NCBI RefSeq assembly: GCF_001697225.1
Contig: NZ_CP014671.1
Location: 496,001 to 560,000 of the forward strand
DNA length: 64,000 nucleotides
Direction of reading: 5' to 3'
Origin: Immundisolibacter cernigliae
Lineage (GTDB): Bacteria; Pseudomonadota; Gammaproteobacteria; Immundisolibacterales; Immundisolibacteraceae
The translations under genes and the position numbers were made by a program. Positions 10,000 to 63,769 of the stretch are shown one piece after another. The notes beneath the pieces are model-generated. The model was not told the DNA's origin, did not search any database, and saw only the letters and a list, made by a program, of their open reading frames with translations. Every line of letters begins with the position of its first letter. The stretch's first letter is position 1.

Positions 10000-10100
10000 C
10001 ATCTCCCGGGCTTTTGTCCCGCCGTGTACCCGGTCCTGTGGGGGCCGGGCTGCCTCTCTCGGACCAGCACCCGGCCGCAGCCGAATCGGAACCCTAGACG
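10000..10100 (-). ncRNA. Guanidine-I riboswitch (ykkC class)
   Basis: On the minus strand all conserved blocks of the guanidine-I aptamer appear in order: CTAGGGTTCCG (10097-10087), CTGGTCCGAGAG, a GGCCGGG/CCCGGCC stem, ACGGCGGGAC and GGGACAAAAGCCCGGGAGA (10020-10002). The aptamer ends about 75 bases before the binding-protein start. Guanidine binding to this class normally turns on detoxification or degradation genes, here a guanidine importer and hydrolase. The GGGACAAAAGCCC stem-loop and the downstream genes favour guanidine over the ppGpp or PRPP variants of the ykkC fold. Confidence 0.95.
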
Positions 10101-10104
10101 CACC

Positions 10105-11262
10105 GTGAGCTTTGCAATCCCTGTGCCACACCCTGCCGCCACGACCACGCAGACGCTTCCCAACGCCGGGCGGATCACCTTCGATCCGCGTCCGCAGGCC
10201 GCTTCCGTCGCCGTGGTGCTGCGCCTGGCGGGCGGCACGCGCGAGGAAACCGCCGCCGATGCCGGGCATCTGCACCTGCTCGAACACCTGCTGCTGCGGC
10301 GCACCGCCCGCGCCGATTCGTCGGCACTCGCCCGGCGCGTCATGGCGCTTGGGGGCATGGTCAATGCCGAGACCGGCCGCGAACATCTGGCGCTGATGGG
10401 CCGCGCGCCGGCTGCACTGGCGTCCGCACTGGCCGACCTGCTGGTCGAGTGCCTGTGCGAACCCGCCTTCGACGAAACCGACCTGGCACTGGAACTGGGC
10501 GTGATCGAGGCCGAACGCACTTTCGTGGGGCACACGCCGCCCGACGAGTCCCTGATCCGGCTCGCCTGGCCGCAGCACCCGCTCGGCCGGCTGCTGCTGC
10601 CGGCCGATCCGGCACCGGCCAACCCGGCTGCGCTGCAGCGACTGTGGGCGCGCCAGTGCGTCGGAACACGGCTCGGCGTGGCGGTCGTCGGTGCCTTCGA
10701 TGTTGCCGCGGTCGAAGCAGCGCTTGCACCGCTGGCGAAGCTGCCCGCCGGCACCGCCCCTGACTGGGGAGCACCGCCGCAGTTCGTGCCCGGCCGCTAC
10801 GGCGATCTGTGCGAGGAGCGGCCAGCAAGCCTGCTGTGGGCGCTGCCGTGCACACCCTACGACCGAGTCAATACGGCCGGCTGGGAACTGACTGCAACGG
10901 TGCTGGAATTCACCCTTGCCGCGGCGCTGCGGGACACCGGTCTTGCCTATGCGTGCGCGGTGTGGCCAGAGGTCTACTCGGACACCGGCCTGATCGCGGT
11001 GCAGGTATCGACGGTGCCGGGCCGGGTCGCCGCCTGCGCCGACGCGGTGAACGCCTGCCTGGATACTCTGTGCAAGACCGGCCCGGCGCCGGAGCTGCTG
11101 AGCCTTGCGCGCGCTGCCCGCTCGGCGCGCGCAGCGCTGGCCAGGGACCACCTGGAAGACCGGGCGCGGGCGCTGACGCAGCATCCGCCCGGCATAGACC
11201 CGGCGCCCGGCCAACGGATCGTGCTGCCGCCCGCCGGCTGCGTGTTGCAGATCGTGGTGTGA
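10105..11262 (+). CDS. M16-family (pitrilysin-like) metallopeptidase
   Basis: The product (385 residues from a GTG at 10105) carries the inverted zinc motif HLLEH (residues 57-61 from that start), with further glutamates about 75 residues downstream in LELGVIEAERTF, as in M16 zinc peptidases. It is a single-copy, roughly two-domain subunit rather than a full insulinase. The in-frame ATG at 10024 lies inside the opposite-strand riboswitch, so GTG is preferred. It is divergent from the guanidine operon and convergent with the MaoC gene. The substrate is unknown; PqqF-like or processing-peptidase-like roles are both possible. Confidence 0.75.
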   Translation: MSFAIPVPHPAATTTQTLPNAGRITFDPRPQAASVAVVLRLAGGTREETAADAGHLHLLEHLLLRRTARADSSALARRVMALGGMVNAETGREHLALMGRAPAALASALADLLVECLCEPAFDETDLALELGVIEAERTFVGHTPPDESLIRLAWPQHPLGRLLLPADPAPANPAALQRLWARQCVGTRLGVAVVGAFDVAAVEAALAPLAKLPAGTAPDWGAPPQFVPGRYGDLCEERPASLLWALPCTPYDRVNTAGWELTATVLEFTLAAALRDTGLAYACAVWPEVYSDTGLIAVQVSTVPGRVAACADAVNACLDTLCKTGPAPELLSLARAARSARAALARDHLEDRARALTQHPPGIDPAPGQRIVLPPAGCVLQIVV

Positions 11263-46555: not shown

Positions 46556-46630
46556 AGAGGTGGCGCCGGTTTTTCGGACACGGGTATAAGTGGATTTCAG
46601 GCCGGGCACCGACGTGACCGGAGGCATGAA

Positions 46631-46672
46631 GCCCGCGTAGGGCGGAATAGCGAAGCGTATTCCGCCTTCCGG
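46631..46672. repeat. REP element, left of intact RAYT
   Basis: A 42-base element: GTAG followed by a perfect 9-bp stem GGCGGAATA/TATTCCGCC with an 8-base loop. Its exact inverted copy is at 47242-47283, so the pair brackets the RAYT gene. Confidence 0.9.
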
Positions 46673-46703: not shown

Positions 46704-47366
46704 ATGCCGCATTACGTTCGTGCTGACATCCCTGGCGGAACCTTCTTCTCCACCGTCGCCCTGCTCGAACGCCGCCGCCGGCTGTTGGTCGAGAACATCG
46801 GGACGTTGCGCGAAGCGTTTCGCGGCGTCCGGCATCGGTATCCTTTCACCATCGACGCCATCGTGATCCTCCCGGAGCACCTGCACTGCGTCTGGACATT
46901 GCCGGCCGGCGATGCCGATTTCTCCACCCGCTGGCGACTGATCAAGGCCGCCTTCGCGCGCGGCATCGCGGCTGGGGAACGGCTGTCCGAACGACGCCAG
47001 CGCACCGGCGAGCGCGGCATCTGGCAGCGGCGCTTCTGGGAACACGCGATCCGCGATGCGGTCGACCTGACCCGGCACGTGGACTCCATCCATCACAACC
47101 CCGTGAAACACGGCCTCGCCGACCGGGTTGTGGGCTGGCCGTATTCGTCGTTTCACCGCTACGTCGAGCGGGGGTGTTTATCCACCGGACTGGGCCGCCG
47201 GATCAGCAGTGCGCGGGTTGAGTTTCGAGTAGCCTTGCTCTCGGAAGGCGGAATACGCTTCGCTATTCCGCCCTACGCGGGCTGCGCAGCCAGTTCAAAT
47301 AGGCTGGACTCCTGCGGCTGGAGGGAAGAAATCGACGTTTGCGGTATCAGTCCGTTACATCGCTGA
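46704..47366 (+). CDS. REP-associated tyrosine transposase (RAYT), C-terminus frameshifted
   Basis: This IS200-like HUH transposase domestically pairs with REP elements. Visible features are YVRADIPGGTFFSTV, the HUH motif LPEHLHCVW, QRRFWEHAIRDAVDL, SIHHNPVKHGLADR and the catalytic Tyr region WPYSSFHRYV. After VERG near 47172 the frame reads non-homologous residues and runs through the flanking REP. In another frame the expected YPPDWAAGSAVRGLSFE appears and stops at 47230-47232, just before the REP. A single-base insertion therefore seems to have altered the last 17 residues and added a tail. The ATG at 46704 is preferred over 46674. Confidence 0.88.
   Translation: MPHYVRADIPGGTFFSTVALLERRRRLLVENIGTLREAFRGVRHRYPFTIDAIVILPEHLHCVWTLPAGDADFSTRWRLIKAAFARGIAAGERLSERRQRTGERGIWQRRFWEHAIRDAVDLTRHVDSIHHNPVKHGLADRVVGWPYSSFHRYVERGCLSTGLGRRISSARVEFRVALLSEGGIRFAIPPYAGCAASSNRLDSCGWREEIDVCGISPLHR
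47242..47283. repeat. REP element, right of intact RAYT
   Basis: Exact inverted copy (42 of 42 bases) of 46631-46672. It begins 9 bases after the ancestral RAYT stop at 47232. Confidence 0.9.
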
Positions 47367-51542: not shown

Positions 51543-51622
51543 CGAAGAAGTATCGGCGTCTGCGAACTGTAGGAGCCCGGCTATGCCGGGCGATCATCGC
51601 GCTACCGCGGCGCTTTTCCGGT

Positions 51623-51702
51623 GTGGGAGGCCCGCCCTCGGGCCGAATCGTCAGGCCGCAGCGGATCGCGCTTTGGATTCGCGGCGGGGGCGCCGCTCCC
51701 AC
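51623..51702. repeat. Dispersed palindromic repeat, copy 1
   Basis: An 80-base unit starting GTGGGAGGCCCGCCCTCGGG and ending GGGCGCCGCTCCCAC, with complementary ends. Similar units occur at 51715, 55409 and 56555. Confidence 0.85.
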
Positions 51703-51714
51703 CGGAAAACTCCT

Positions 51715-51792
51715 GTGGGAGGCCCGCCCTCGGGCCGAATCGTCAGGCGCAGCGATCGCGCTTCGGATTCGCGGCGGGGGCGCCGCTCCCAC
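51715..51792. repeat. Dispersed palindromic repeat, copy 2
   Basis: A 78-base copy of the 51623 unit, in tandem with it and 12 bases away, in the same orientation. Confidence 0.85.
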
Positions 51793-51848
51793 AAGGGCGC
51801 CGGCTGCATCAGGCAGCCTGTGGTGCCGCCTTCAGGCGCGAGCGGCCT

Positions 51849-55140: not shown

Positions 55141-55275
55141 TCAACGAACGGGGCTACAGGTCTTGGGGCGTAAGGCCGGTAAGCTTCGCGACACGGGCAT
55201 CGCCAGGCGCTTCACGCGCTCCTCGAGGTCCGGATCGATCTCGATTGCGACGGGACGGGCCGTGGTCGAGCTCAT
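55141..55275 (-). pseudogene. Antitoxin-like fragment (RHH/CopG-type start), frameshifted
   Basis: The ORF begins MSSTTARPVAIEIDPDLEER and continues VKRLA, like the N-terminus of small ribbon-helix-helix antitoxins. After this the frame gives unrelated residues, while another frame reads DARVAKLTGLTPQDL and stops, so a one-base deletion probably broke it. No toxin partner is next to it. It abuts uvrB and the left 320-bp direct repeat. It could also be a stray decayed fragment of another small protein. Confidence 0.5.
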
Positions 55276-55290: not shown

Positions 55291-55612
55291 CAGGGAAGCT
55301 GAACAAGTCCATCCCGGATTTCTCGGCGCCCGCAACCCAAAAACCTTGTGTGAGCGCAGCTTCGCTGCGCGATGATCGCCCGGCATAGCCGAGCTCCAGG
55401 GAAACCCCGTGGGAGGCCCGCCCTCGGGCCGAATCCTCAGGCGTAGCGATCGCGTTTTGGATTCGCGGCGAGGGCGCCGCTCCCACAGTTTTCCGATAGC
55501 TCACACAATCAGCAGCTTATAGCCACTGATTTTGGCAGCGCGGCCCTGCGGTACGGGAACGGCTCGCCCTGCCGTGGTGGGGCAACAATGCCAGACCTGA
55601 GCCCGTTGCCTT
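55291..55612. repeat. Left copy of ~322-bp direct repeat flanking the toxin-antitoxin pair
   Basis: Starts CAGGGAAGCTGAAC and ends GAGCCCGTTGCCTT. It matches 56435-56758 along its whole length with only scattered differences and contains a palindromic repeat at 55409-55486. Confidence 0.9.
55409..55486. repeat. Dispersed palindromic repeat, copy 3
   Basis: A 78-base copy of the unit at 51623, here inside the left direct repeat. Its ends are GTGGGAGGCCC and CCGCTCCCAC. Confidence 0.85.
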
Positions 55613-55677
55613 AGCCCTGCGCCGGCCCGCAGACTCCGGGAAAACCTCCGAGCCCACGGCTATGCGGGGGCCTTGTA

Positions 55678-55706
55678 TTGTCGGTAAGGCGTTATTGCAT
55701 TATTAT
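55678..55706 (+). promoter_or_regulatory. Candidate sigma-70 promoter of toxin-antitoxin operon
   Basis: A -35-like TTGTCG (55678-55683) and a -10-like TATTAT (55701-55706) are separated by 17 bases, about 38 bases before the antitoxin ATG. The stretch is AT-rich against GC-rich flanks. Operator sites for the AbrB-type antitoxin would be expected to overlap it. Confidence 0.5.
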
Positions 55707-55743
55707 CCGAAATTTCCAACAAGGGACCGCGAGGACGGACGCC

Positions 55744-55995
55744 ATGACCACATTGACCGTTACCGCACGGGGACAAGTGACGTTCAGAAAAGATGTACTG
55801 CAACATCTCGGCATCAAGCCGGGGGACAAGATCGAACTGGATTTACTGCCAAATGGTCGCGGCATGCTCAAGGCTGCCCGGCCAACCGGAACGATTGACG
55901 GCTTCATCGGATTGCTTGCGGACCGGACACAGAAAGTCGCCACCATCGAAGAAATCAACGCGGCGACCGCCCAAGGTTGGGCAGGCAAAGAATGA
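55744..55995 (+). CDS. AbrB/MazE-family antitoxin
   Basis: This 83-residue protein has an N-terminal swapped-hairpin AbrB domain (TLTVTARGQVTFRKDVL, GIKPGDKIEL) and a flexible C-terminal tail that would bind the toxin. It overlaps the PIN gene by four bases (ATGA), typical of toxin-antitoxin pairs. The ATG at 55744 is preferred over 55678. A GAGGA ribosome site lies upstream. It probably autoregulates the operon. Confidence 0.9.
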   Translation: MTTLTVTARGQVTFRKDVLQHLGIKPGDKIELDLLPNGRGMLKAARPTGTIDGFIGLLADRTQKVATIEEINAATAQGWAGKE

Positions 55996-56405
55996 AGGTC
56001 GCTGTCGATACCAACGTACTCATTCGTGCTGTCGTGCGCGATGATCCTGCACAAGCGAAGGTCGCCACCAAGGTCTTGACCGATGCTGAATTGATCGCGG
56101 TAGCAATGCCGTGTCTGTGCGAATTTGTGTGGGTGCTGCTCAGGGTCTACGACTTCCAACCATCCGACGTGAGCACCGCTATCCGCGCACTACTTGCCGC
56201 CGCAAACGTGGAAGCGAACCGGCCCGCCGTAGAGGCGGGCCTGTCGGTGCTCGAAGCGGGAGGTGATTTCGCCGATGGCGTCATTGCCTATGAAGGAAAC
56301 TGGCTCGGTGGGGAAGTCTTCGTATCCTTCGACAAAAAAGCGGTTGCACTTCTCACGGCACAAGGCCAACCAGCGCGCCTTCCGGGGCATTCGGGTCAGG
56401 TCTAG
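55992..56405 (+). CDS. PIN-domain toxin (VapC-like ribonuclease)
   Basis: This 137-residue PIN protein has the acidic active-site residues in DTNVLIRAV, CLCEFVWVLL, DFADGVIAY and SFDKKAV. Such toxins cut RNA, often tRNA, when free of antitoxin. It overlaps the antitoxin gene by four bases. The ATG at 55992 gives the standard PIN N-terminus. Confidence 0.9.
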   Translation: MKVAVDTNVLIRAVVRDDPAQAKVATKVLTDAELIAVAMPCLCEFVWVLLRVYDFQPSDVSTAIRALLAAANVEANRPAVEAGLSVLEAGGDFADGVIAYEGNWLGGEVFVSFDKKAVALLTAQGQPARLPGHSGQV

Positions 56406-56434
56406 CTTTACAGCATCCCGCCTCCCCCGATCCC

Positions 56435-56758
56435 CAGGGAAGCGCTGAATAAATCCATCCTGGATTTCTCGGCGCCCGCTACCCAAAAACCTTGTGGGAG
56501 CGCAGCTTTGCTGCGCGATGATCGCCCGGCACAGCCGGGCTCCAGGGAAACCCCGTGGGAGGCCCGCCCTCGGGCCGAATCGTCAGGCGTAGCGATCGCG
56601 TTTTGGATTCGCGGCGAGGGCGCCGCTCCTACAGTTTCCCGATAGCTCGCAAAATCAGCAGCTTGCAGCCACCGATTCTGGCGGCGCGTCCCTGCGCTAC
56701 GGGAACGGCTCGCCCTGCCGTGGTGGGGCAACAATGCCAGACCTGAGCCCGTTGCCTT
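56435..56758. repeat. Right copy of ~322-bp direct repeat
   Basis: Direct copy of 55291-55612 beginning CAGGGAAGCGCTGAAT, 30 bases after the PIN stop. Differences are scattered single bases or small gaps. It includes the dispersed palindromic unit at 56555-56632. Confidence 0.9.
56555..56632. repeat. Dispersed palindromic repeat, copy 4
   Basis: A 78-base copy of the unit at 51623, ending CTCCTAC instead of CTCCCAC, inside the right direct repeat. Confidence 0.85.
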
Positions 56759-57073: not shown

Positions 57074-60000
57074 TCAGACCGTGTGGTCGATCTGGCCGTT
57101 GGTGATCAGCGTATCGAGGGTGGTAGTCACATTCTGCAGCGTAGCGATCTGCACTGCGTCGGCGTGGTCCCCGCCAGTGGCATCGAAGGCGATGGTTGTA
57201 TTTGCACCGGACGCAACAACCAGGTAGTCGCTTTCGTGATCGGTGAATTGCGCCGGCGTGATCCCCGCCCCGGCCAGTAGGTCGCTGATGTCAAGCACGT
57301 CCCCACCCGACGCTAGGGGAGCAACGGTGAAATCGGTAATGGTGTCCACGCCACGCCCCACATCACCACGCTGGAAAACGAAGCGGTCGCTAGTCGAGTC
57401 CGGCCCACCACTTCCGCCCGTAAGCGTGTCCGATCCGGTCTGGCCGAACAGCACGTCGCTGCCAGCACCACCCACCAGGATGTCGTCGCCGCCGCCGCCG
57501 CCGCCGATGAGAACATCGTCCCCTTCAAGCCCCGTCAGGATATCCGCTCCTGCCGCGCCCGAAAGAATGTCGTTACCGGTGGTTCCGGGCAGGTCAAAAG
57601 CCTCGGTTGCCGGCACCGGATCGTTCGCGTAGATGTCCACGGTGAAGCTCTGCGCGGCGGTGATGTCTCCATCGCCGTCCTGCAACTGCACGTCGAAGCT
57701 GATCTGCTCGTCGTCAGGCGGGAATGTGGCCGTAGCCTCGAAAGAAGTAAGCATGATCTTAGCGGCCTGATTGTTGGCAGCGCTGGTGATGTTGAAATCG
57801 ACGTTCACCACATTCCCGTCGAAATCGCCGGATGCCAGAAAGTCTACGGTCGTCTCACCGTTCCCGCTCACGTCAAAGGAACCGGTAATGGAATCACCGT
57901 CCGCGTCGAACGCTTCCCATTGGACGGTCAAGGTTCCCGTACCGTTGAACTCGTAGGCGAGCGTGAAGTCGCTCGCCAGGAAGCCGATGAACGTCGTCGT
58001 CCAACTCTCGTTCTGATTGAACAGATTGCTGCCTACACCGAACTCCCCGTTCGACGGATTGAAATTGGCCGAGCTGCCATTTATCTCCGCGTTCTCGAAC
58101 CGGATCTGAGCATCCGGATCGTCGGCATCGGTAAACGTCAGCGTCGAAACCGGGCCACCGGGTTCCACCCCAGTCAGATCAAAGTCCACATCTCCCTCCG
58201 CCGAAGTCTGCAGCAGGGTGAACTGGTACTGCCCGCTGTCATCAACCGTCAGGGTGTAAATAGGAACGTCGTCCGCGTCGAGGCCGGTAACCATACTCGT
58301 ACCTTCACCGGTAATCGAGGTCGAAAACCCGTCGTCATCCACATTCGAGATAACAAACTGGCCGACCCCGTCGCTTCCGGCGTCGAACGCCATCTGGCCG
58401 GTAACAGTTTGTAGCTCGTTGGGCATGACGATGTTGGCAATTGGCTCGAGCGTCGGACCGTCGTCCTTGAAGGTGATGCTCAGGGCATTGGCGCTGGTCG
58501 CCGTGTCAAAGTCGCCGTCGGCATCGGTCACCGTCTGCACCACGCCGATCGCCGCCGCACCGCTCAGGCTGACACCGTCGTCATGCGCGGCTCCCATGCC
58601 GTCCACCGGGTGGTTGAAGGTGACGTGCTGCGTCACCGTGACTTCGCCGGTCGCGCTGTCGATGCTGATGGTGAAGGCTTTGATGCCTACGTCGTTGTTG
58701 TCGCCCGTCCAGCCTTCGTACTGGGTGTCGCTGATCTTGTACAGATTGACTTCATCCGCACTGCCATTGACGAAGATGCCGGTGAGCGCCCCATCGGTGG
58801 CGCTCAGGCTGTAGGTGGTCGTGCCTGCGCCGTCCTGGCCGTATACCGGCGCATTGAACAGGCCGGCAATGGTGGCAGCAGTAATCGTCGCCGTGTCCAG
58901 ACCGCCGGTTTCGTCCAGCGTGACCGAGCCCGTGCCAGCGTTCGCCGAGGCGTCCGGACCGTCGTCCTTGAAGGTGATCGACAGCGCATTGCTGCTGGTC
59001 GCCGTGTCAAAGTCGCCGTCAGCATCGGTCACCGTCTGCACCACGCCGATCGCCGCCGCACCGCTCAGGCTGACACCGTCGTCATGCGCGGCTCCCATGC
59101 CGTCCACCGGGTGGTTGAAGGTGACGTGCTGCGTCACCGTGACTTCGCCGGTCGCGCTGTCGATGCTGATGGTGAAGGCTTTGATGCCTACGTCGTTGTT
59201 GTCGCCCGTCCAGCCTTCGTACTGGGTGTCGCTGATCTTGTACAGATTGACTTCATCCGCACTGCCATTGACGAAGATGCCGGTGAGCGCACCGTCGGTC
59301 GCGCTCAGGCTGTAGGTGGTCGTGCCTGCGCCGTCCTGGCCGTATACCGGCGCATTGAACAGGCCGGCAATGGTGGCAGCAGTAATCGTCGCCGTGTCCA
59401 GACCGCCGGTTTCGTCCAGCGTGACCGAGCCCGTGCCAGCGTTCGCCGAGGCGTCCGGACCGTCGTCCTTGAAGGTGATCGACAGCGCATTGCTGCTGGT
59501 CGCCGTGTCAAAGTCGCCGTCAGCATCGGTCACCGTCTGCACCACGCCGATCGCCGCCGCACCGCTCAGGCTGACACCGTCGTCATGCGCGGCTCCCATG
59601 CCGTCCACCGGGTGGTTGAAGGTGACGTGCTGCGTCACCGTGACTTCGCCGGTCGCGCTGTCGATGCTGATGGTGAAGGCTTTGATGCCTACGTCGTTGT
59701 TGTCGCCCGTCCAGCCTTCGTACTGGGTGTCGCTGATCTTGTACAGATTGACTTCATCCGCACTGCCATTGACGAAGATGCCGGTGAGCGCACCGTCGGT
59801 CGCGCTCAGGCTATAGGTGGTCGTGCCTGCGCCGTCCTGGCCGTATACCGGCGCATTGAACAGGCCGGCAATGGTGGCAGCAGTAATCGTCGCCGTGTCC
59901 AGACCGCCGGTTTCGTCCAGCGTGACCGAGCCCGTGCCAGCGTTCGCCGAGGCGTCCGGACCGTCGTCCTTGAAGGTGATCGACAGCGCATTGCTGCTGG

Positions 60001-63000
60001 TCGCCGTGTCAAAGTCGCCGTCAGCATCGGTCACCGTCTGCACCACGCCGATCGCCGCCGCACCGCTCAGGCTGACACCGTCGTCATGCGCGGCTCCCAT
60101 GCCGTCCACCGGGTGGTTGAAGGTGACGTGCTGCGTCACCGTGACTTCGCCGGTCGCGCTGTCGATGCTGATGGTGAAGGCTTTGATGCCTACGTCGTTG
60201 TTGTCGCCCGTCCAGCCTTCGTACTGGGTGTCGCTGATCTTGTACAGATTGACTTCATCCGCACTGCCATTGACGAAGATGCCGGTGAGCGCCCCATCGG
60301 TGGCGCTCAGGCTGTAGGTGGTCGTGCCTGCGCCGTCCTGGCCGTATACCGGCGCATTGAACAGGCCGGCAATGGTGGCAGCAGTAATCGTCGCCGTGTC
60401 CAGACCGCCGGTTTCGTCCAGCGTGACCGAGCCCGTGCCAGCGTTCGCCGAGGCGTCCGGACCGTCGTCCTTGAAGGTGATCGACAGCGCATTGCTGCTG
60501 GTCGCCGTGTCAAAGTCGCCGTCAGCATCGGTCACCGTCTGCACCACGCCGATCGCCGCCGCACCGCTCAGGCTGACACCGTCGTCATGCGCGGCTCCCA
60601 TGCCGTCCACCGGGTGGTTGAAGGTGACGTGCTGCGTCACCGTGACTTCGCCGGTCGCGCTGTCGATGCTGATGGTGAAGGCTTTGATGCCTACGTCGTT
60701 GTTGTCGCCCGTCCAGCCTTCGTACTGGGTGTCGCTGATCTTGTACAGATTGACTTCATCCGCACTGCCATTGACGAAGATGCCGGTGAGCGCCCCGTCG
60801 GTCGCGCTCAGGCTATAGGTGGTCGTGCCTGCGCCGTCCTGGCCGTATACCGGCGCATTGAACAGGCCGGCAATGGTGGCAGCAGTAATCGTCGCCGTGT
60901 CCAGACCGCCGGTTTCGTCCAGCGTGACCGAGCCCGTGCCAGCGTTCGCCGAGGCGTCCGGACCGTCGTCCTTGAAGGTGATCGACAGCGCATTGCTGCT
61001 GGTCGCCGTGTCAAAGTCGCCGTCAGCATCGGTCACCGTCTGCACCACGCCGATCGCCGCCGCACCGCTCAGGCTGACACCGTCGTCATGCGCGGCTCCC
61101 ATGCCGTCCACCGGGTGGTTGAAGGTGACGTGCTGCGTCACCGTGACTTCGCCGGTCGCGCTGTCGATGCTGATGGTGAAGGCTTTGATGCCTACGTCGT
61201 TGTTGTCGCCCGTCCAGCCTTCGTACTGGGTGTCGCTGATCTTGTACAGATTGACTTCATCCGCACTGCCATTGACGAAGATGCCGGTGAGCGCACCGTC
61301 GGTCGCGCTCAGGCTATAGGTGGTCGTGCCTGCGCCGTCCTGGCCGTATACCGGCGCATTGAACAGGCCGGCAATGGTGGCAGCAGTAATCGTCGCCGTG
61401 TCCAGACCGCCGGTTTCGTCCAGCGTGACCGAGCCCGTGCCAGCGTTCGCCGAGGCGTCCGGACCGTCGTCCTTGAAGGTGATCGACAGCGCATTGCTGC
61501 TGGTCGCCGTGTCAAAGTCGCCGTCAGCATCGGTCACCGTCTGCACCACGCCGATCGCCGCCGCACCGCTCAGGCTGACACCGTCGTCATGCGCGGCTCC
61601 CATGCCGTCCACCGGGTGGTTGAAGGTGACGTGCTGCGTCACCGTGACTTCGCCGGTCGCGCTGTCGATGCTGATGGTGAAGGCTTTGATGCCTACGTCG
61701 TTGTTGTCGCCCGTCCAGCCTTCGTACTGGGTGTCGCTGATCTTGTACAGATTGACTTCATCCGCACTGCCATTGACGAAGATGCCGGTGAGCGCCCCAT
61801 CGGTGGCGCTCAGGCTGTAGGTGGTCGTGCCTGCGCCGTCCTGGCCGTATACCGGCGCATTGAACAGGCCGGCAATGGTGGCAGCAGTAATCGTCGCCGT
61901 GTCCAGACCGCCGGTTTCGTCCAGCGTGACCGAGCCCGTGCCAGCGTTCGCCGAGGCGTCCGGACCGTCGTCCTTGAAGGTGATCGACAGCGCATTGCTG
62001 CTGGTCGCCGTGTCAAAGTCGCCGTCAGCATCGGTCACCGTCTGCACCACGCCGATCGCCGCCGCACCGCTCAGGCTGACACCGTCGTCATGCGCGGCTC
62101 CCATGCCGTCCACCGGGTGGTTGAAGGTGACGTGCTGCGTCACCGTGACTTCGCCGGTCGCGCTGTCGATGCTGATGGTGAAGGCTTTGATGCCTACGTC
62201 GTTGTTGTCGCCCGTCCAGCCTTCGTACTGGGTGTCGCTGATCTTGTACAGATTGACTTCATCCGCACTGCCATTGACGAAGATGCCGGTGAGCGCCCCG
62301 TCGGTCGCGCTCAGGCTATAGGTGGTCGTGCCTGCGCCGTCCTGGCCGTATACCGGCGCATTGAACAGGCCGGCAATGGTGGCAGCAGTAATCGTCGCCG
62401 TGTCCAGACCGCCGGTTTCGTCCAGCGTGACCGAGCCCGTGCCAGCGTTCGCCGAGGCGTCCGGACCGTCGTCATACACCGTGATAACAATCGGCTGCGC
62501 GGCCGTGCTGGTATATGACACACCATTAACGACTACGGTCGTGGAAACCTCAGCGGTGATGTTGATAGGCAGGGTGTCATTGTGCTGATCACCACCCTGC
62601 GGGTGGTCCATCGGCTGGAGTTGGGTGAAGGTGTAGGTTTCATTGTTGTTCACCACGATCTGCCAACTACCGTCATTGGCTGTCAGGGTGTTGGTGGCGG
62701 CATTCCACGTGGCGTCAGTCGCGGCCAGCGTGACGACGGGTGTCGTGCCCGCGCCCAAGTAAGTGACGTCAAGCACGCCCGTGACGGAATCCAGTCCGCC
62801 GGTTTCGTCCACACTGTTGTTAGTGGCATCAATCGCAATATCGTCATCCACGATGGTGACCGTGGCGCTGTCATTGAGCAGCGTTGCACCGATAACGTTG
62901 CTGAGCACAATCTGGAAGGTCTCGTTGCCCTCGATCACAGTATCGGCAACGATATTTTCGGTGACGGTAAAGCCGATAAACCCTGCGGGAATCGTGACGG

Positions 63001-63769
63001 TACCGGTTTGGGCGCCATCGAAAAAATCGTCCGGATTGGTCGCGGAAACCGGCACGATGGTGTAGGTAACAGTTACCGGTGTCGTGGCCACCTGGCTGAG
63101 AGTAATCAGGAACGTCACCTGATGGCTGAAGCCATCGGAACCTTCTATGACACTGGCGCCCGCGACCCCGCCCGTGATGGGCGTGCCACCGGGAATCAGG
63201 ACGATCCCGCCCTCGCCGGGCTCGCCCCCACCGATCTCCACATCCACCTCGACCGAAACCACGATGCTCGGCTCCGGCTCCTCGGTCGGCAGGATGATGT
63301 CGATGGTGTTCTCGAACAGCAGCGGCTCGGCGGCAGTAGGGATGCCCGCCTCGGGGTTCAGCGCATTGAAGTCGTGGTTCAGGACCACGAACGAGTGGCC
63401 ACCTTCTTCGCCACCGGCGCCGCCGGCGGCGGCCCCGGCCGCGGTGGGCGGCAGCAATTGGGTCGGATCGCCGCCGGCTTCGATGGCGGCCTGGATGTCT
63501 TCAACCCTGGCTACGGCGCTGGCGGCTTCCGCCTCCGGACCTTCCTGGCTGTAGACGTCCGAGTCCAGGACGGCTTGGGCGTTGCCGCCCAGGTCGAACC
63601 AGCCACCGTCGTTGAACTGGATGGTGACGGCGCCGGCATCGGCGGTGCGGATGATCTCGTCGGCGTAGACGACGTCCCCGACGACCAGGACGCGCTCGAC
63701 GCCGTCCGCGTTGACCGCGACGACGTGGCCAACGACGGTGGTGACGATGCCGATTTGCTGCGCTGCCAT
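57074..63769 (-). CDS. LapA/BapA-like giant RTX biofilm adhesin
   Basis: This 2231-residue surface protein is built like LapA. Residues 1-110 form the retention module (MAAQQIGIVTTVVGHV; GDVVYADEIIRTADAGAVTI) followed by a TAAG site at 109-112. A Calx-beta-like domain (about 200-310) and a variable domain precede eight 167-residue repeats (434-1769). The C-terminal part has RTX-like glycine-rich repeats (GTTGNDILSGAAGADILTG) and a type I secretion end. The retention module would hold it in the outer-membrane pore; a LapG-type protease would release it. The secretion and protease genes are outside the window. A GGGAG ribosome site precedes the ATG. Confidence 0.93.
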   Translation of the reverse strand: MAAQQIGIVTTVVGHVVAVNADGVERVLVVGDVVYADEIIRTADAGAVTIQFNDGGWFDLGGNAQAVLDSDVYSQEGPEAEAASAVARVEDIQAAIEAGGDPTQLLPPTAAGAAAGGAGGEEGGHSFVVLNHDFNALNPEAGIPTAAEPLLFENTIDIILPTEEPEPSIVVSVEVDVEIGGGEPGEGGIVLIPGGTPITGGVAGASVIEGSDGFSHQVTFLITLSQVATTPVTVTYTIVPVSATNPDDFFDGAQTGTVTIPAGFIGFTVTENIVADTVIEGNETFQIVLSNVIGATLLNDSATVTIVDDDIAIDATNNSVDETGGLDSVTGVLDVTYLGAGTTPVVTLAATDATWNAATNTLTANDGSWQIVVNNNETYTFTQLQPMDHPQGGDQHNDTLPINITAEVSTTVVVNGVSYTSTAAQPIVITVYDDGPDASANAGTGSVTLDETGGLDTATITAATIAGLFNAPVYGQDGAGTTTYSLSATDGALTGIFVNGSADEVNLYKISDTQYEGWTGDNNDVGIKAFTISIDSATGEVTVTQHVTFNHPVDGMGAAHDDGVSLSGAAAIGVVQTVTDADGDFDTATSSNALSITFKDDGPDASANAGTGSVTLDETGGLDTATITAATIAGLFNAPVYGQDGAGTTTYSLSATDGALTGIFVNGSADEVNLYKISDTQYEGWTGDNNDVGIKAFTISIDSATGEVTVTQHVTFNHPVDGMGAAHDDGVSLSGAAAIGVVQTVTDADGDFDTATSSNALSITFKDDGPDASANAGTGSVTLDETGGLDTATITAATIAGLFNAPVYGQDGAGTTTYSLSATDGALTGIFVNGSADEVNLYKISDTQYEGWTGDNNDVGIKAFTISIDSATGEVTVTQHVTFNHPVDGMGAAHDDGVSLSGAAAIGVVQTVTDADGDFDTATSSNALSITFKDDGPDASANAGTGSVTLDETGGLDTATITAATIAGLFNAPVYGQDGAGTTTYSLSATDGALTGIFVNGSADEVNLYKISDTQYEGWTGDNNDVGIKAFTISIDSATGEVTVTQHVTFNHPVDGMGAAHDDGVSLSGAAAIGVVQTVTDADGDFDTATSSNALSITFKDDGPDASANAGTGSVTLDETGGLDTATITAATIAGLFNAPVYGQDGAGTTTYSLSATDGALTGIFVNGSADEVNLYKISDTQYEGWTGDNNDVGIKAFTISIDSATGEVTVTQHVTFNHPVDGMGAAHDDGVSLSGAAAIGVVQTVTDADGDFDTATSSNALSITFKDDGPDASANAGTGSVTLDETGGLDTATITAATIAGLFNAPVYGQDGAGTTTYSLSATDGALTGIFVNGSADEVNLYKISDTQYEGWTGDNNDVGIKAFTISIDSATGEVTVTQHVTFNHPVDGMGAAHDDGVSLSGAAAIGVVQTVTDADGDFDTATSSNALSITFKDDGPDASANAGTGSVTLDETGGLDTATITAATIAGLFNAPVYGQDGAGTTTYSLSATDGALTGIFVNGSADEVNLYKISDTQYEGWTGDNNDVGIKAFTISIDSATGEVTVTQHVTFNHPVDGMGAAHDDGVSLSGAAAIGVVQTVTDADGDFDTATSSNALSITFKDDGPDASANAGTGSVTLDETGGLDTATITAATIAGLFNAPVYGQDGAGTTTYSLSATDGALTGIFVNGSADEVNLYKISDTQYEGWTGDNNDVGIKAFTISIDSATGEVTVTQHVTFNHPVDGMGAAHDDGVSLSGAAAIGVVQTVTDADGDFDTATSANALSITFKDDGPTLEPIANIVMPNELQTVTGQMAFDAGSDGVGQFVISNVDDDGFSTSITGEGTSMVTGLDADDVPIYTLTVDDSGQYQFTLLQTSAEGDVDFDLTGVEPGGPVSTLTFTDADDPDAQIRFENAEINGSSANFNPSNGEFGVGSNLFNQNESWTTTFIGFLASDFTLAYEFNGTGTLTVQWEAFDADGDSITGSFDVSGNGETTVDFLASGDFDGNVVNVDFNITSAANNQAAKIMLTSFEATATFPPDDEQISFDVQLQDGDGDITAAQSFTVDIYANDPVPATEAFDLPGTTGNDILSGAAGADILTGLEGDDVLIGGGGGGDDILVGGAGSDVLFGQTGSDTLTGGSGGPDSTSDRFVFQRGDVGRGVDTITDFTVAPLASGGDVLDISDLLAGAGITPAQFTDHESDYLVVASGANTTIAFDATGGDHADAVQIATLQNVTTTLDTLITNGQIDHTV
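58463..62470 (-). repeat. Eight tandem 501-bp repeats in the adhesin gene
   Basis: Eight units of exactly 501 bp (4008 bp total), coding the 167-residue repeat that opens DGPDASANAGTGSV, are nearly identical even at silent positions. Small synonymous variants within each unit define a higher-order order. The identity points to recent duplication and gene conversion, and makes assembly collapse or expansion a real risk. Confidence 0.95.

Follow-up and report, generated by a model that had tools for sequence, protein, structure and literature searches.

An AbrB/PIN toxin-antitoxin unit of the VapBC type lies between two copies of a long direct repeat in the genome of Immundisolibacter cernigliae. 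On balance, and with modest confidence, we favour that this unit was acquired horizontally and was inserted between uvrB and an adhesin gene with duplication of a 324-bp host target. In all likelihood, the repeats mark where the unit entered and are not themselves the mobile element. We infer both that the duplication was made by the insertion event itself and the manner in which this took place. The question addressed is how chromosomal toxin-antitoxin pairs reach distant bacteria when no mobile element accompanies them. All coordinates refer to the window, the whole stretch of 64,000 nucleotides that was analysed.

The toxin-antitoxin cassette

The antitoxin gene (55744-55995, + strand) encodes 83 amino acids and is of the AbrB/MazE type. 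Its matches to the family models (PF04014, 20.0 bits; TIGR01439, 22.4 bits) have E-values of about 1e-4 and fall short of the curated cut-offs; the homologues are named AbrB, MazE, or SpoVT in database records. The predicted toxin gene (55992-56405, + strand) follows directly and shares its first 4 bp with the end of the antitoxin gene. It encodes a PIN-domain protein (VapC type) of 137 residues, which scores 26.6 bits against PF01850 (cut-off 23.6) and contains the acidic residues D6, E44, D95, and D114, identified by eye. A search by sequence gave no solved relative of the toxin. Homologous toxins end at about residue 131; here, the usual end and the stop codon are swapped for seven foreign codons, so the right breakpoint fell inside the end of the gene.

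The leader (55676-55743, + strand), described as promoter-like in a first-pass annotation of this DNA, is conserved in homologues. In the alignment, the -35 and -10 elements (TTGTCG-17-TATTAT in the window) and their 17-bp spacer are retained, and within the spacer lies a palindrome, GTAAGGC-N6-GCATTAY (GTAAGGC-N6-GCATTAT in the window), which is probably the operator of the antitoxin. The gene order, the overlap of 4 bp, the PIN domain, and a putative promoter with a palindrome are those of VapBC-type type II systems. Unlike the standard system, the antitoxin scores under the curated cut-offs and the C-terminus of the toxin is altered at the junction.

The cassette has a GC content of 57%, compared to 68% for the window, and no close relative of the toxin is present in the sister species (G001 and G002). 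The 80 loci that match best in other genomes, from dozens of distant proteobacteria, all have 73-85% DNA identity to the cassette. The cassette also occurs in hundreds of plasmid records (in E. coli, on plasmids only), with no copy in phage records. Judged by its composition and distribution, the toxin-antitoxin unit is horizontally acquired. DNA homology to other loci begins at or after 55674, just 5' of the promoter, and is over by 56381, in the last toxin codons; in dozens of genomes, it breaks off sharply at 55676 and 56381. Since the homology is confined to the stretch from promoter to toxin stop, the travelling unit is a minimal operon of promoter, antitoxin, and toxin that lacks conserved ends; comparison of the homologous loci revealed neither a transposase nor conserved element ends in the cassette. 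The fillers between cassette and repeats vary from locus to locus; in the window, they span 55618-55675 on the left, where no match was found, and 56382-56434 on the right, beyond the point at which the match to other genomes stops.

A version of the cassette with an adjoining resolvase gene, bounded by 25-bp inverted repeats, is found at 22 loci and on many plasmids. The L075 cluster and pCT14 (plasmids and chromosomes) have the same promoter-to-stop cassette, with ~81% DNA identity, in a 2.1-kb unit that carries the resolvase gene inside the 25-bp inverted repeats; this conventional vehicle is absent in the window.

Structure and divergence of the flanking repeats

The left copy (55291-55617) and the right copy (56435-56758) of the repeat, both on the + strand, align over 324 bp with 93% identity when small gaps are allowed and over 300 nt with 93% identity when they are not. 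The longest identical run is 61 bp. The second-longest direct repeat across the 6-kb region measures 46 nt, and the 324-bp pair is far above chance. The first-pass annotation had reported direct repeats of about 322 bp bracketing an AbrB/PIN module, and both the repeats and the two genes are indeed present.

Each copy is a composite. A dispersed element, X, makes up positions 1-107 and ~198-270 of the repeat; it is present several dozen times in this genome of 3.24 Mb and as often in the sister genome G001. As the two X parts adjoin at many other sites, positions 109-197 represent a unit nested in X. In the left copy, this REPIN-like unit (55396-55487, + strand) consists of two inverted palindromes headed by GTGGGAG, with related units at 51620-51793; the inverted pair of REP palindromes with the conserved head was recognised by eye at 55406-55487 and in the related copies. 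The inverted GTGGGAG-headed palindromes and their many dispersed copies are features of REPIN/BIME sequences, whereas X is a separate dispersed element of ~130-190 bp or more that houses such units. An intact X copy (L008:2226-2390) extends beyond the window copies and has CTAG at both ends, and a REPIN-like unit is often located mid-X. Both window copies carry a truncated X that runs into an identical tail of ~51 bp (55563-55617, + strand, in the left copy), found in this genome only in the two repeat copies. The composite of truncated X, nested unit, and unique tail occurs only twice in the genome. All three features are common to both copies, which means that they stem from a single duplication and not from two separate insertions. 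The repeat begins on the left where X has its 5' end, and this was counted against duplication of a target.

The divergence between the copies is mosaic, with ~9-14% in the X parts, 1-2% in the nested unit, and 0% in the final 61 bp (~20 differences in X vs ~2 in the nested unit and tail; Fisher p 5e-4). The first-pass annotation had called the repeats near-identical; this description holds with qualification. The X part of each window copy has closer matches among the other X copies than in its partner, so either later gene conversion or some other history is needed; the nested unit and the tail do not behave in this way. Ectopic gene conversion from the many X copies would explain the uneven divergence, as would an integrated donor with a differing X. 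In the case of a donor, the module would have come on a circle or fragment already bearing a copy of the target (X and tail) and would have entered through homologous recombination with the resident copy; the repeats could later free the module. We regard this as unlikely. It predicts the exact repeat-module-repeat layout and accounts for the 9-14% difference in X, but the donor must have had the same unique tail and the same nested unit.

It is less likely still that the module lies by chance between two independent insertions of a widespread dispersed element, with gene conversion having raised the similarity of the two. The dozens of X copies in this genome and its sister, and the nearer relatives of each X part elsewhere, would fit such a history. 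The nested unit, the truncation of X, and the unique tail, which are common to these two copies only, speak against it, and conversion cannot copy a tail past the homology unless one end was joined illegitimately. We favour duplication of the target on arrival of the module. The suggestion of a mobile or duplicated cassette in the first-pass annotation applies in so far as the toxin-antitoxin unit is horizontally mobile; what underwent duplication, most likely as the module came in, is the flanking DNA and not the cassette. The same annotation had named, as evidence against its reading, an arrangement common to all relatives and a repeat from a general family with many copies. The core of the repeat does belong to a many-copy family, but the composite unit occurs in the two copies only and no relative with the arrangement was found. 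Deletion of the module by recombination between the repeats, via the 61-bp identical run, would be possible on paper.

Just left of the left repeat is the start remnant of a putative ribbon-helix-helix (ParD/CopG-like) antitoxin gene (55150-55274, - strand; named by eye), of which 62 bp match the decayed ParD start region of the sister genome (G001:C8) with 87% identity. The sister locus (L052:1355-1986; G001:C8) carries a ParE toxin gene with the decayed ParD, and the adjoining stretch is 78% similar to the tail of the repeat. This ParE/ParD locus is located elsewhere in that genome and resolves the left side of the left repeat only. The empty site of the window was sought in the sister genome and not found; the uvrB region there is 95% identical up to 55175 and unrelated thereafter. 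The gene on the other side of the repeat-module-repeat structure is a 2231-aa adhesin-like ORF (57074-63769, - strand) with eight 501-bp tandem repeats, ~98% identical to each other.

Flanking duplications at homologous loci

The comparison of flanks at homologous loci was unplanned. Loci with similar flanks were merged to give 55 nonredundant loci, this window included; several of the loci compared come from metagenome bins. Flanking direct repeats were termed tight if they measured 42 bp or more (E <1e-10) and each cassette edge lay no farther than 150 bp from its copy. By this criterion, which was chosen once six cases were known (L151 and L207 alone were found afterwards), tight repeats are present at 8 of the 55 loci and at none of 159 control ORFs of the same loci (Fisher p 1e-5). 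A conservative count, taking the related loci L128 and L137 as one, gives 7/54 vs 0/159 (Fisher p 5e-5), and such repeats occur in none of 232 shifted windows. Four of the eight tight cases (this window, L128, L137, and L151) involve dispersed intergenic repeats, which cluster between genes, and the control ORFs correct for this only partly. If the count is limited to cases with a non-dispersed or composite repeat (this window, L097, L129, and L146), the comparison is 4/55 vs 0/159 (p 0.004). The majority of homologous loci are without a flanking repeat, and L151 has its flank cluster in common with loci that have none. A trial with a second toxin family (ParE) yielded seven matching genomes only, too few for analysis.

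The repeats are 324 bp long here and 42-161 bp at the seven other loci, and their sequences are unrelated. In every tight case, they are located no more than ~110 bp from the promoter and no more than ~80 bp from the toxin stop. The duplicated targets are the 46-bp 3' half of tRNA-Met (L097), ~110 bp with the 3' end of rpsT and its terminator (L129), 161 bp comprising the final 144 bp of a GMC oxidoreductase gene and a further 17 bp (L146), an intergenic stretch of 44 bp that follows a lytic transglycosylase gene (L207), and repeat-like intergenic DNA (L151, L128, and L137). An integron-cassette reading was dropped, as the repeats of different hosts bear no relation to each other and comprise sequence from a tRNA, from a ribosomal protein gene, and from the end of an oxidoreductase gene. 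Empty sites were found for two loci: L167, a relative of L129, and L182, a relative of L146, each have one target copy and no module. A search for the empty site of L151 gave nothing usable.

The left rpsT end at L129 is far more diverged than the right end, which would suit the integration of a donor that already carried a target copy. The targets differ elsewhere (tRNA, rpsT, oxidoreductase, and the intergenic 44-mer), so a matching donor would have been required every time. L129 also has an extra insertion of ~900 bp to the left of the module, downstream of rpsT (L129:1645-2514), with a DUF6036 nucleotidyltransferase gene and a 115-aa partner, which may constitute another addiction module at this site. 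This extra insertion indicates a more complex history of that locus.

The tRNA half at L097 is the classical attachment pattern, and L129 and L146 also involve the 3' ends of genes. These features would agree with remnants of integrase-type islands, in which the repeats would be attachment sites and the addiction module would be all that was left. We consider such an origin very improbable: the repeats range from 42 to 324 bp and are unrelated in sequence, erosion from both sides must have halted within the short distances given above in each tight case, and the window shows no integrase next to the module.

Proposed insertion with long target duplication

For restriction-modification genes, insertion with long target duplication is on record (Nobusato et al. 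2000, via PMC3874152 and PMC1643837). A 2013 review (among PMC3874152 and PMC1643837) gives long, variable target duplications of the order of 100 bp for restriction-modification systems and does not state them for toxin-antitoxin pairs. No report of such insertion for toxin-antitoxin modules was found in the literature searched, which comprised papers available without subscription. In common with the restriction-modification cases are an addiction-type unit, the lack of a known mobile element, long and variable target repeats, and, for L129 and L146, a single target copy in relatives. The loci described here differ in that the unit is a toxin-antitoxin pair and the hosts are proteobacterial, as compared to Helicobacter; for the window, part of the target is a dispersed repeat and no empty site was found. 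The layout of the window and the analogy with restriction-modification genes would place it in this class.

For the mechanism, we favour that the module would be captured as a fragment at a break whose strands are cut far apart. End joining at such a break, or template switching during repair, would then leave a target copy on each side of the module. Addiction would guard the newly inserted module against deletion, and the duplicated gene end would keep the target gene whole. The surviving insertions would be those that spare the neighbouring gene and resist loss by addiction.

The recurrent footprint, in which long stretches of duplicated host DNA border the module and relatives have empty sites, points to one route of entry. 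It connects toxin-antitoxin modules with the second class of addiction genes, those for restriction-modification, and offers a simple survey of how common the route is. As a tentative and somewhat doubtful extension, toxin-antitoxin modules as a class may spread in the manner of restriction-modification genes, as minimal promoter-to-stop units inserted with long target duplication and free of a transposase, with addiction making rare insertions persist.

Two further features were observed elsewhere in the window, a Guanidine-I riboswitch (10001-10108, - strand, 83.7 bits) and a perfect 42-bp inverted repeat (46630-46671 and 47242-47283) with arms 570 nt apart.
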